A stretch of 64,000 nucleotides of DNA from the NCBI GenBank assembly GCA_015075635.1, contig JABTUA010000001.1, positions 744,001 through 808,000 on the forward strand, written 5' to 3'. The stretch is from Polyangiaceae bacterium. Lineage in GTDB: Bacteria; Myxococcota_A; Polyangia; Polyangiales; Polyangiaceae. A model generated the notes under the pieces. It did not search any database, had not been told where the DNA came from, and saw only the letters and a list, made by a program, of their open reading frames with translations. Within the stretch, counting starts at the first letter, position 1. The number at the start of each line of letters is the position of its first letter. Made by a program: the position numbers and the translations under genes. Shown piece by piece: positions 1 to 10,394 of the stretch.

Positions 1-255
1 ACCGAGAAGACCGACTCGGCGGTGAATGCGGTGCCGGTCGAATGCCCCGCGGCACCTCAGAGCGCGCCTCCCAGCGGAGCGTGCATCGGGTCGGGGTCGT
101 GCCTGGTCAGCGTGTACCTGAACTGTCCGGATGGCGGCGCGGGCATGCAGAAGCTCTTCGACTGCGAGTGTACCGGCACGTGGTCATGCCAGCAGACCGG
201 CCAGACGCTCGGATTCTGTGGGGCTCCGCCGCAGGACGCCGGAACGCCGGACTAG
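1..255 (+). CDS. C-terminal part of a Cys-rich secreted protein (5' end outside window)
   Basis: The reading frame is open from base 1 and ends with TAG at 253-255, so the start lies upstream of the window. About 84 residues are visible. They are rich in Cys, Gly and Pro, with two sub-patterns of the form C-x-G-S-G-S-C and C-x-C-x5-C, and end in a Pro/Asp-rich tail. This looks like the end of one of the many disulphide-rich surface lipoproteins of myxobacteria. Only the tail can be seen and no function can be assigned. Its stop codon interlocks with the stop of the convergent PhaC gene in a shared CTAG (252-255). Confidence 0.6.
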   Translation, partial: TEKTDSAVNAVPVECPAAPQSAPPSGACIGSGSCLVSVYLNCPDGGAGMQKLFDCECTGTWSCQQTGQTLGFCGAPPQDAGTPD

Positions 256-1259
256 TCAGCTCGCTCCTCCCAGAACTTCGCCATCGCCGGCCACAGGCTC
301 TGCGCGGCCTTCTTCGACACCACCGCGCCCACGTGGCCGCCGGGCAGGTGGATGCGGTGCTTGTCGGTCGCGGAGATGCGCTCGAGCAGCACCGCGGCGC
401 TCTGGGGCAGGACGATGTTGTCGTGCTCGAAGGTGACGGCCAGGGTCGGGCAGGTGATGGCCTCGAGCCGCGCGGGCTTGCCCGAGAGCGTGAAGGTCCC
501 CGCGAGCAGCGCGTCCTTCCGGTACAGCTCCTCCACGTAGCGCTCGTAGCAGGCGCCCGGGAACGACACGTTGTCGTTGCCCCAGGTCTCCAGCGCCAGG
601 AAGCCGTTCATGAACTCGTCGTCCCAGAGCTTGTCGGCGGCGTGTACGGCCTTGGAGAGATTGAGGGTGGGCCGGAGCATGTGGAAGGCGGACTGCATCA
701 GCTGCCAGGGCACGTTGCCGGTGCCTGCCACCACGGCCTTCACGTCGAAGCTCGCCGAGCGCGTCCAGGTGCTGAGCAGCCCACCGTCGTGAAAGCCGAT
801 GGGCGCCGCCAGGGCCGTGAGCGAGGCGAAGCGTTCGGGGTAGACCGTGGCGTGGATGGCTGCGAGCGTGCCGCCCAGGCAGTACCCGAGCACGTGAGAG
901 CGCGGCGCCCCGGCGATTTCCGCTGATTTCTTCAGCGCGCGACCCAGGTAGCGATCGCACACGTCGTCGAAGCTGACGTAGCGATCCTCGTCCCCCGGTG
1001 TGCCCCAGTCCAGGCAGAACACGTCGTGACCACGCGCCACGAAGTACTCGACGAAGCTCTTGCCGGGCAGCAGATCGAGCACGTAGTGCCGGTTGATCAG
1101 CGAAGGCACCAGCACGAGCGGCGTCGCGAACGCGCGGCCCTCCGCCCGCGGCCGGTAGCGCAAGAGGCGCCACTTGTTCTCCGTGAACACGACGTCCGCC
1201 GGGGTCTGCCCCACGGCGGGCGCCTTCCGCCCCAGGAGTGAGCCGAGCGCCTGGAACAT
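252..1259 (-). CDS. phaC: PhaC-type polyhydroxyalkanoate synthase (class III-like)
   Basis: A 335-aa alpha/beta-hydrolase-fold protein with the PHA synthase signature: a lipase-like box G-Y-C-L-G-G with nucleophile Cys127, a VPSLINRHYVLDL strand, DWGTPGDEDR, Asp280 and a GGH motif with His309. The Cys-Asp spacing (153) and Asp-His spacing (29) equal those of the class III PhaC of Allochromatium (C149, D302, H331), and the length is close to that short class. It should polymerise hydroxyacyl-CoA into polyester with a PhaE-like partner; a short candidate is encoded two genes upstream (3003-3287). The ATG overlaps the stop of the acyl-CoA ligase in TGATG, so translation is probably coupled. It is the last gene of a seven-gene operon. 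A second PhaC lies at 8673-9635. Substrate length cannot be read from the sequence. Confidence 0.85.
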   Translation of the reverse strand: MFQALGSLLGRKAPAVGQTPADVVFTENKWRLLRYRPRAEGRAFATPLVLVPSLINRHYVLDLLPGKSFVEYFVARGHDVFCLDWGTPGDEDRYVSFDDVCDRYLGRALKKSAEIAGAPRSHVLGYCLGGTLAAIHATVYPERFASLTALAAPIGFHDGGLLSTWTRSASFDVKAVVAGTGNVPWQLMQSAFHMLRPTLNLSKAVHAADKLWDDEFMNGFLALETWGNDNVSFPGACYERYVEELYRKDALLAGTFTLSGKPARLEAITCPTLAVTFEHDNIVLPQSAAVLLERISATDKHRIHLPGGHVGAVVSKKAAQSLWPAMAKFWEERAD

Positions 1260-2995
1260 CAGCCGTACAGTGCCTCGAAGTCGCGCTGAAAGGCCTGGTA
1301 GATCTGCTTGCGCCGGGGCTTCAGGGTCGAGGTCAAGAGGCCTCCGGCCACCGTCAGCGGCGTGTCCATCACGCGGAAGCGTTTGATCTGCTCGAAGCTC
1401 GCCAGGTGCTGGTTCACGCGCTCGACGCTCGCGGCGACGAGCTCCGCAATGGCCGCGCTGCGGCCCTCCGGCTTCACGCCCAGCGCCGCGAGCTTCGCGT
1501 CCGTGGCCTCCGGGTTCAGCCAGATCCCCGCGACCAGGAACTTCTTGCCGTCTCCGTAGACGATGGCGTTGGCGACCACCGGGTCGTCGGCGAAGCGAAG
1601 CTCGATGTTCGCCGGCGGGACGTTCTTGCCGCCCGCGGTGACCAGGATCTCCTTCTTGCGATCGACGATCTGCAGGAAGCCGTCGTCGGTGAAGCGGCCC
1701 ACGTCCCCGGTCTTGAACCAGCCGTCGTCGGTGAAAGCCTCGCGGCTCGCAGCGGGGTCCTTGTGGTAGCCCGCGAAGATGTTGGGGCCGCGGGCCAGGA
1801 TCTCGCCGTCCTCCGCCAAGCGCAGCTCGACCGACGGCAGCGGCTTGCCCACGGAATCGAAGCGGAAGGCGTCGGGTCGGTTCAAGGTGAGCGTGGGCGA
1901 GCACTCGGTGAGCCCGTAGCCCTCGATGATGAGCAGACCGCACTCGTAGAAGAGTTGCTTGATCTCGCGCTTCAGGCCCGCGCCGCCGGACAGGCAGAAG
2001 CGCAGCCGGCCGCCGGTCAGCGCCGCCAGCTTCTCGCGACGCGCATCGGGATCGCTCTCGGTCATCGCGCCGGTGGCGAGCTTCTCCCAGTAGGCGGGCA
2101 CGCTCATGAACACGCTGGGCTTCACCTCGGGCAGGTGCCCGAGCACCTTCAGCGGATCGGACAGATAGGTGGTGAAACCCAGGGTATTGCCCAGGCACGC
2201 CTCGCCCAGGCCGAAGATGTGGCTCATCGGCAACCACAACAGGTCCACCGCGTTGTCCTCCAGCAGCGGCGCGTTGCACTCCAGCCAGTCCAGGCCGTTC
2301 AGCGCGACGTTCCGGTGGGTCAGCGGCACGCCCTTGGGGTTGCCGGTGGTGCCGCTGGTGTAGAGCATCAGCGCCGGCCGATCGAGCTCCACCGCCTGCA
2401 TGCGCGTTTCGAACGCCTGCGGCGCCTCCAGATCGTGGGCCGCGCCCAGCGCGAGCGCGCGGCTCCAGGTCACGAGCTTGGATTCGAGCTCGGCCGCGGC
2501 GGGCGCGGGTTTGCCCTGCGCGCGGAGCTCCGCCAGCACCTTGCCGGCGTCGATGCCGTCGTCGAGCAAGACCACACGCTCCAGGTGAGCGAGCTCGCTC
2601 CAGCGCTCGAGCACCCGCGCGAGCAGCGCCGGCGTGTCCACGAAGAGCACCTTCGCGTCGCTGTGGTCCACGATGTACGCGGCCTGCTCCGCGGTGCAGG
2701 CCGGATAGACCGGGACCATGACGCCGCCCGCGGCCTGGATCGCCAGCGCCGCCTCGATCCACTCCACGCGATTCGGCGCGAAGATCGCCGCGCGATCGCC
2801 GGGCTCGAGCCCCGTGGCCGCCAGGTAGCAGGCGAGCTTCCGGATGGCGTCGGCGTACGCGCCCCAGGTCACCGCCGCCCAGTCGCCCTCGGGCGTCGGC
2901 AGCATGAAGCGCGGGCGCGAGCGCCGCTCTTCCAGGGCGTCGAACACGGCGCGGGGGGCGATCTTCAGCTCGCGATACGGCGTGATGTCGAACAT
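1259..2995 (-). CDS. AMP-forming long-chain acyl-CoA synthetase
   Basis: A 578-aa member of the ANL (acyl-CoA synthetase) superfamily. It carries the P-loop [11 protein letters not shown] near residue 213 and the adenylate-binding IIEGYGLTE. Also present are the hinge/A8 region with GWFKTGDVG and a [16 protein letters not shown]-like motif. Organisation and length fit the FadD15-type long-chain ligases. It would activate a free fatty or hydroxy-fatty acid with ATP and CoA. Its place between a PhaE-like gene (7-nt gap) and phaC (1-nt overlap) suggests it supplies acyl-CoA to the synthase, perhaps from acids released by the hydrolase of the same operon. Chain-length preference is unknown. Confidence 0.88.
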
Positions 2996-9635: not shown

Positions 9636-9647
9636 GAGAGAGCCCCC

Positions 9648-10394
9648 ATGAAACTCGACAGCTTGAAGATCATCGTCACCGGAGCCGGGCGCGGCATGGG
9701 CGCTCACTTTGCCAAGCAGCTCGCCGCCGCGGGCGCCAAGGTCGCCGCGGGCGACGTGGACGAGGCGGGGCTCGCGGAGCTCCCCGCCGGCATCGCGCGC
9801 CGCCGGCTCGACGTCTCGAACGAAGCGGACTGCGTGGCGTTCACCCAGTGGGCGGCCTCCGAGCTCGGCGGGCTGAACGCCTTGGTCAACAACGCCGGCA
9901 TCATTCGCGACGGCCTGCTGGTCAAGCGCGATCGCGAGACCGGCAAGGTCACGACGCTCTCGACGGACGACTGGCAGCGCGTGCTGGCCGTGAACCTGAC
10001 CGGCGCGACCTTCATGGTGCGCGAGCTGGCGAAGACCATGGTCGAGGCCGGAACCCGGCCGGGCGTGGTGGTCAACATCTCCAGCGTCTCCCGCCACGGT
10101 AACCGCGGGCAATCGAACTACGTCGCCGCCAAGGCGGCCCTGGCGGCCAACACCGTGACCTGGGCCCGCGAGTTCGCGAGCTACGGCATCCGCGTCGGCT
10201 GCATCGCCCCGGGCATGGTGGAGACGCCGATGACCCAGGGCATGAACCAGAAGGCCCGCGACGCGCTGGTGGCCGCCATCCCGGTGGGCCGCATCGGCGT
10301 GCCGGAGGACCTCTGGCTGGCGGTGCGCTTCGTGCTGGAGTGCGACTACTTCAACGGCCGCTGTGTCGATGTGGACGGTGGGCTGGTGATGTAG
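9648..10394 (+). CDS. short-chain dehydrogenase (3-ketoacyl-CoA/ACP reductase, PhaB/FabG type)
   Basis: A 248-aa SDR. It has a Rossmann motif TGAGRGMG near residue 11, NNAG at 82-85, catalytic Ser in NISSVS, and Tyr/Lys in SNYVAAKAAL, with the usual PGMVETPM after beta-6 and VDGG at the C-terminus. Just after the phaC gene (12-nt gap), the likely role is NADPH-dependent reduction of 3-ketoacyl-CoA to the (R)-3-hydroxyacyl-CoA that PhaC polymerises. An insertion of about ten residues (RDRETGKVTT) follows NNAG and may shape the substrate pocket. A general FabG function cannot be excluded. Confidence 0.8.
   Translation: MKLDSLKIIVTGAGRGMGAHFAKQLAAAGAKVAAGDVDEAGLAELPAGIARRRLDVSNEADCVAFTQWAASELGGLNALVNNAGIIRDGLLVKRDRETGKVTTLSTDDWQRVLAVNLTGATFMVRELAKTMVEAGTRPGVVVNISSVSRHGNRGQSNYVAAKAALAANTVTWAREFASYGIRVGCIAPGMVETPMTQGMNQKARDALVAAIPVGRIGVPEDLWLAVRFVLECDYFNGRCVDVDGGLVM

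Follow-up and report, generated by a model that had tools for sequence, protein, structure and literature searches.

Polyhydroxyalkanoates (PHA) are storage polyesters, and the Myxococcota are a bacterial phylum that includes the predatory myxobacteria. The sequence studied here (the window) is a 64,000-nt stretch from a Polyangiaceae bacterium, corresponding to positions 744001-808000 of contig C1 in a 9.47 Mb genome. It carries a divergent locus in which genes of PHA synthesis are combined with four genes of the cell envelope, i.e., those encoding an outer-membrane β-barrel of the TIGR04551 family, lipoproteins A and B (lipA and lipB), and a lipid-anchored α/β hydrolase (hyd). Seven genes are arranged leftward in the order lipA-hyd-barrel-lipB-phaE-ligase-phaC, and genes for PhaR, a phasin-like protein, a second PhaC and a reductase run rightward, divergent from lipA. 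We propose that the locus probably imports PHA-derived hydroxyacids for storage, i.e., serves PHA acquisition; this uptake of extracellular PHA is proposed because the loci of relatives contain transporters, extracellular depolymerases and intracellular polyhydroxybutyrate (PHB) depolymerase. We give roughly even chances to a wider proposal, a full polyester-scavenging system of predatory Myxococcota in which enzymes (a surface depolymerase, a lipid-anchored oligomer hydrolase, a ligase and a PHA synthase) and transport proteins (a symporter and a specific outer-membrane channel with two partner lipoproteins) act together so that the prey store is rebuilt as the cell's own. The computed support covers the gene content, the conservation, the barrel model, and the in-locus depolymerases and transporters of relatives; the substrate, the direction of transport and the role of each lipoprotein are what we infer.

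The barrel and PhaC were searched in 184 genomes of the order, among which barrel orthologues share ~40-83% identity and a distant paralogue ~36%. When presence was scored by us as a barrel orthologue and as a PhaC with E below 1e-60, PhaC of this kind was found in 64 of the 70 genomes with the barrel and in 16 of the 114 without it (Fisher P 6e-27, ancestry ignored), an association that partly follows from co-location. Regions of up to 20 kb were examined in 40 genomes, where the gene order is the same nearly everywhere, and 80 named loci were then compared. The barrel is present in all 80, lipB in 79, hyd in 77, phaE in 73, and lipA and the ligase in 72 each, many of the missing genes being due to contig ends. 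The intergenic gaps over the 80 loci have medians of 5-20 nt and are below 150 nt in 97-100%. Whether the seven genes stay together in other genomes had been left as a question by the initial annotation, made from the window alone, and the order is indeed kept in the named loci; conservation of the locus is far above chance. By assembly name, the carriers include Polyangiaceae, Minicystis rosea, Labilithrix, Sandaracinaceae, Archangium, Kofleriaceae and Bradymonadaceae, with the alignments drawn largely from metagenome assemblies and the taxon names used as given to them. The four envelope genes stay together even where the PHA genes are rearranged (L078-L083), and at L120, L125 and L127 they adjoin other PhaC-like genes. 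In family f3, a lipA-hyd-barrel-lipoprotein unit is located behind PhaR-phasin-PhaC, with phaE-ligase-phaC in the opposite direction.

Three unrelated families of inner-membrane transporters are found at the locus in relatives: MFS (12/80 loci), SSF (7/80) and YaaH (5/80). The MFS gene is in nearly all cases located between phaR and lipA and co-oriented with the latter, and its product matches anion carriers of the galactonate/lactate type weakly; the SSF symporter gene is placed between two lipA copies in one lineage and directly before lipA in another. These transporters came from targeted reading, the clustering of open reading frames for more conserved neighbors having returned mostly antisense shadows of known genes. 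At L125 (6556-9030, + strand), the SSF symporter frame runs stop-free into lipoprotein A to give 824 aa, either by fusion or by a stop codon lost in assembly.

Depolymerase genes are also associated with the locus, and the strongest PF10503 matches of the order adjoin its genes. Against NF050058, a curated profile of type 1 extracellular PHA depolymerases of the short-chain-length kind (cut-off 150 bits), the in-locus enzymes scored 308 (L057), 272 (L061), 281 (L067) and 240 bits (L051), and all four carry Sec or lipoprotein signals, which places them with the extracellular type 1 enzymes. The L061 enzyme has in addition a MYXO-CTERM sorting domain (17.0 bits, cut-off 15.85), and a similar tail is visible by eye in that of L067. 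Further depolymerase genes are found beside a PhaC gene in G126, G128 and G121 and directly after PhaC in L123, while an intracellular PHB depolymerase gene lies inside the locus in L113 and L059. Among the 37 depolymerase copies that we counted at a NF050058 score of at least 240 bits in genomes with the barrel, 7 belong to the locus or adjoin its PhaC gene (0.1 expected); counted by genus, there are 4 (P about 5e-6). At L051, PhaR, the phasin-like gene and the depolymerase are present, and PhaC, PhaE and the ligase are absent from the 20 kb read.

The barrel protein of the window (519 aa, 4153..5712, - strand) scored 357.1 bits with TIGR04551 against a cut-off of 300. Its model (pLDDT 86.5) has ~18 strands, as counted from the listed elements, and is without a plug domain. 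The closest structural neighbors are AlgE (Z 25.0), the Campylobacter MOMP (Z 24.6) and OccK/OccD (~21-23.5) at 7-12% identity; the likeness to OprD/Occ or AlgE is one of fold only, with no Pfam family detected at E up to 0.1 and nothing found when the barrel profile was run against sequences of solved structures. Near-invariant arginines (42, 44, 83, 85, 102, 152, 179, 257, 284, 426 and 512) are predicted to point inward, and the acidic residues are mostly on strands other than those of the arginines. Occ channels use a basic ladder for carboxylates. An arginine-lined barrel with OccK/OccD among its neighbors would fit an anion channel, a likeness that is suggestive only. A TIGR04551-like paralogue of 722 aa (36% identity, G000:C1:1313541-1314620) has no PHA genes nearby and is read here as a different clade with a different role; because of it, TIGR04551 as a whole is not regarded as a PHA family.

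Lipoprotein A (6680..7654, - strand, start at 7654 or 7672, lipobox IFGC) and lipoprotein B (279 aa, 3306..4145, - strand, lipobox ATAC) had been called paralogous from the start, which their 27% identity and shared invariant residues bear out: both contain C40, PNxDGxIxxxE, C250 and a terminal RR motif. The PNxDGxIxxxE motif looks like one half of the calcium loop of an EF-hand. In the rest of the window's genome no further copy of this family was detected. The AlphaFold model of lipoprotein B (pLDDT 94.5) is weakly similar to YmcC-like lipoproteins (Z 10.1 and 9.6), and LolA-type folds scored far lower. Weak matches of the lipoproteins or the barrel to DUF1990, RclC and RRM_fung were at chance level and were discarded; TIGR04551 is the sole informative family.

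The hydrolase (5709..6683, - strand, PF00561 105 bits) is exported, as the initial annotation had it, and is here corrected to a lipoprotein: in the N-termini read, the signal peptide of nearly all orthologues is followed by a Cys and then by xFHxGxMPGEP. Most orthologues contain the nucleophile elbow [GA]HS[WY]G, and among solved sequences the hydrolase comes closest to meta-cleavage hydrolases and esterases.

Among the PHA synthesis genes, the leftward phaC (252..1259, - strand) encodes a class III-like synthase of 335 aa with a GYCLGG box (TIGR01836, 251.5 bits), whose catalytic residues align with those of the solved PHB polymerase 5hz2. The rightward phaC (8673..9635, + strand) encodes 320 aa (TIGR01836, 255.0 bits) and matches solved PHA synthases; direct reading gave the motifs GYCIGG, DRDVICPP and GGHVGAVV. 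Both keep the Cys-Asp-His set and are therefore predicted PHA synthases, with scores short of the class III model's cut-off (TIGR01836, 365.3). The ligase (578 aa, 1259..2995, - strand) is FadD-like (PF00501 244 bits, and PF23562), and had no match among solved-structure sequences at a very strict threshold, a result that is little informative. PhaE-like was a name only partly deserved by the 94-aa product of 3003..3287 (- strand): it passes PF09712 (26.9 bits, cut-off 25.7), but corresponds to the C-terminal region of PhaE only (TIGR01834 profile positions 233-320, 31.9 bits against a cut-off of 154.95) and is not a full-length PhaE. PhaR (7755..8291, + strand) carries the PHB_acc_N DNA-binding domain (PF07879, 95.1 bits) that assigns it to its family, with TIGR01848 at 102 bits, slightly below the cut-off of 109.5. 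The phasin-like protein (8294..8665, + strand), identified by position and conserved synteny, has no family match in Pfam or NCBIfam, and because of this the phasin label given to it earlier rests on size, composition and place. The reductase (9648..10394, + strand) is a PhaB-like short-chain dehydrogenase/reductase (PF13561, 154 bits).

Family searches and coordinates thus put all PHA and envelope genes named in the initial annotation at their places. Its spacing claim, 4-nt overlaps or gaps under 20 nt throughout, holds for the leftward operon (-4, -4, +7, +18, +7 and -1 nt), the seven genes of which are presumably expressed as one unit, to judge by these gaps. On the rightward side it depends on a TTG start, with which the PhaR-phasin gap is below 20 nt; the first ATG of the phasin frame would leave ~100 nt. 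The divergent intergenic region (7655..7754) is presumed to be the control region.

The proposed route would begin outside the cell, where PHA depolymerases, either secreted or anchored at the surface, would cleave polyester from lysed prey or soil PHB. The resulting anionic hydroxyacyl oligomers and monomers would cross the outer membrane via the TIGR04551 barrel, at which lipoproteins A and B may bind, help or gate, and the lipid-anchored hydrolase would trim oligomers to completion at the envelope. Once brought in by an inner-membrane symporter, the hydroxyacids would be activated by the acyl-CoA ligase and polymerized again to the cell's own PHA by PhaC, acting with phasin, the PhaE-like protein and PhaR, the putative sensor.

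Several results weigh against this route. The window's own locus is without a transporter and without a depolymerase, and none lies directly to its left either; an adjacent depolymerase or transporter is absent from most loci. The depolymerase-family matches in the window's own genome are distant, the best reaching 177 bits with NF050058 against 240-308 for the in-locus relatives. Against the set of in-locus depolymerases these candidates reached 78 bits at best, and they have the appearance of secreted CE1-type esterases of a general kind; the idea of a clear extracellular depolymerase in this genome found no support. The species of the window may use the same route with depolymerase and transporter encoded elsewhere. 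Depolymerase genes also lie beside PhaC in genomes without the barrel (G094, G181, G182). As to the barrel, its inward and outward faces were assigned by strand alternation and not by coordinates, many acidic residues are also on inward faces, and the top fold match, AlgE, is an exporter, with rows within ~1-1.5 Z to be taken as tied; because of that top match and those ties, the direction of transport is not given by the fold.

Three purposes had been offered for the envelope genes, with no choice made among them, and import alone has gained specific support, from the depolymerases of relatives and three kinds of transporter; the lipid channel and the placement of polymer in the envelope have gained none that is specific. 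Import could also be of a more general kind, in which short-chain carboxylates such as acetate and lactate pass through the barrel and are stored by means of the ligase and PhaC, extracellular polyester being incidental. General uptake would accommodate the YaaH permeases, which belong to an acetate-type family, the weak match of the MFS genes to galactonate/lactate-type anion carriers, and the arginine lining of the barrel; but it leaves unexplained both the lipid-anchored hydrolase, kept in 77/80 loci, and the PHA depolymerases within the locus, and we consider it unlikely.

Flow in the opposite direction, with PHA made by PhaC or short oligo-PHB leaving via an AlgE-like barrel for the surface or the membrane, would agree with AlgE being the top structural match and has a possible parallel in an Alcanivorax mutant whose route of PHA release is unknown (PMC7147478). 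Yet the operon has neither an exporter nor an inner-membrane polymerase complex, the transporters recruited in relatives belong to uptake-type families, a ligase for free acids suggests inward flow, and secreted depolymerases would destroy the product, which makes export very improbable. We think it just as hard to believe that the module is a channel for lipids or fatty acids whose hydroxyacyl products end in medium-chain PHA: the FadD-like ligase and the weak YmcC-like open-barrel match of lipoprotein B point that way, but the in-locus depolymerases are of the short-chain-length type, and the barrel is charged in its lining and closest in fold to AlgE, MOMP and Occ-type proteins. Acquisition of PHA-derived hydroxyacids thus remains the reading we prefer.

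Known extracellular PHA degradation consists of secreted type 1 and type 2 depolymerases, oligomer hydrolases and cytosolic use of 3-hydroxybutyrate. The present loci resemble it in that those of relatives hold type 1 short-chain-length depolymerases above the curated cut-off, and differ by a putative dedicated outer-membrane route in an operon with PHA synthesis, for which no description was found. For medium-chain PHA in Burkholderia, the authors of a 2026 study found no uptake gene and proposed passive diffusion (PMC13101487). Like class III PHA synthase loci, the window's locus has a PhaE-like protein, PhaR, a reductase and a pair of short PhaC that keep Cys-Asp-His; unlike them, its PhaC and PhaE-like proteins fall below the curated class III cut-offs, PhaE is reduced to its C-terminus, and envelope genes are part of the operon. 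The barrel has the 18 strands and inward conserved arginines of Occ (OprD), AlgE and MOMP, but is only ~7-12% identical to them and belongs to TIGR04551. Sus-type polysaccharide utilization loci follow a similar logic, combining an outer-membrane channel and lipoproteins with a surface and an inner hydrolase and an inner-membrane transporter, whereas neither a SusC/TonB-dependent barrel nor SusD was found here by Pfam/NCBIfam searches and in the model, and the proposed substrate class is a polyester. Bdellovibrio, whose predation on PHA-rich prey has been studied (PMC4834554), is an endobiotic predator unlike the bacteria considered here, and such an operon was not found described for it in the accessible text. 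Most activated-sludge Myxococcota have PHA genes according to a survey whose available portions make no mention of envelope genes (PMC11821767).

In the open-access literature no paper on TIGR04551 by name and nothing matching a PHA utilization locus was found; the view of the initial annotation that no described system has this gene set is provisionally upheld to that extent. For the passage of PHA hydrolysis products over the outer membrane, the locus offers a specific channel, two lipoproteins and a hydrolase as candidates, and it provides a first functional lead for one TIGR04551 clade and both lipoproteins. If the proposal is true, the locus would be a polyester counterpart of polysaccharide utilization loci and would bear on bioplastic decay and on the use of prey carbon stores by predatory bacteria. 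Minicystis rosea DSM 24000 (L091) is a cultured carrier.

Two other genes were noted. A lone, divergent third PhaC-like gene (33% identity) is found at G000:C2:2149016-2149873, away from the pha locus, and the gene at window positions 10473-11855, right after the rightward operon, encodes an exported phosphatase of the HAD family that contains a collagen-like repeat close to the N-terminus.

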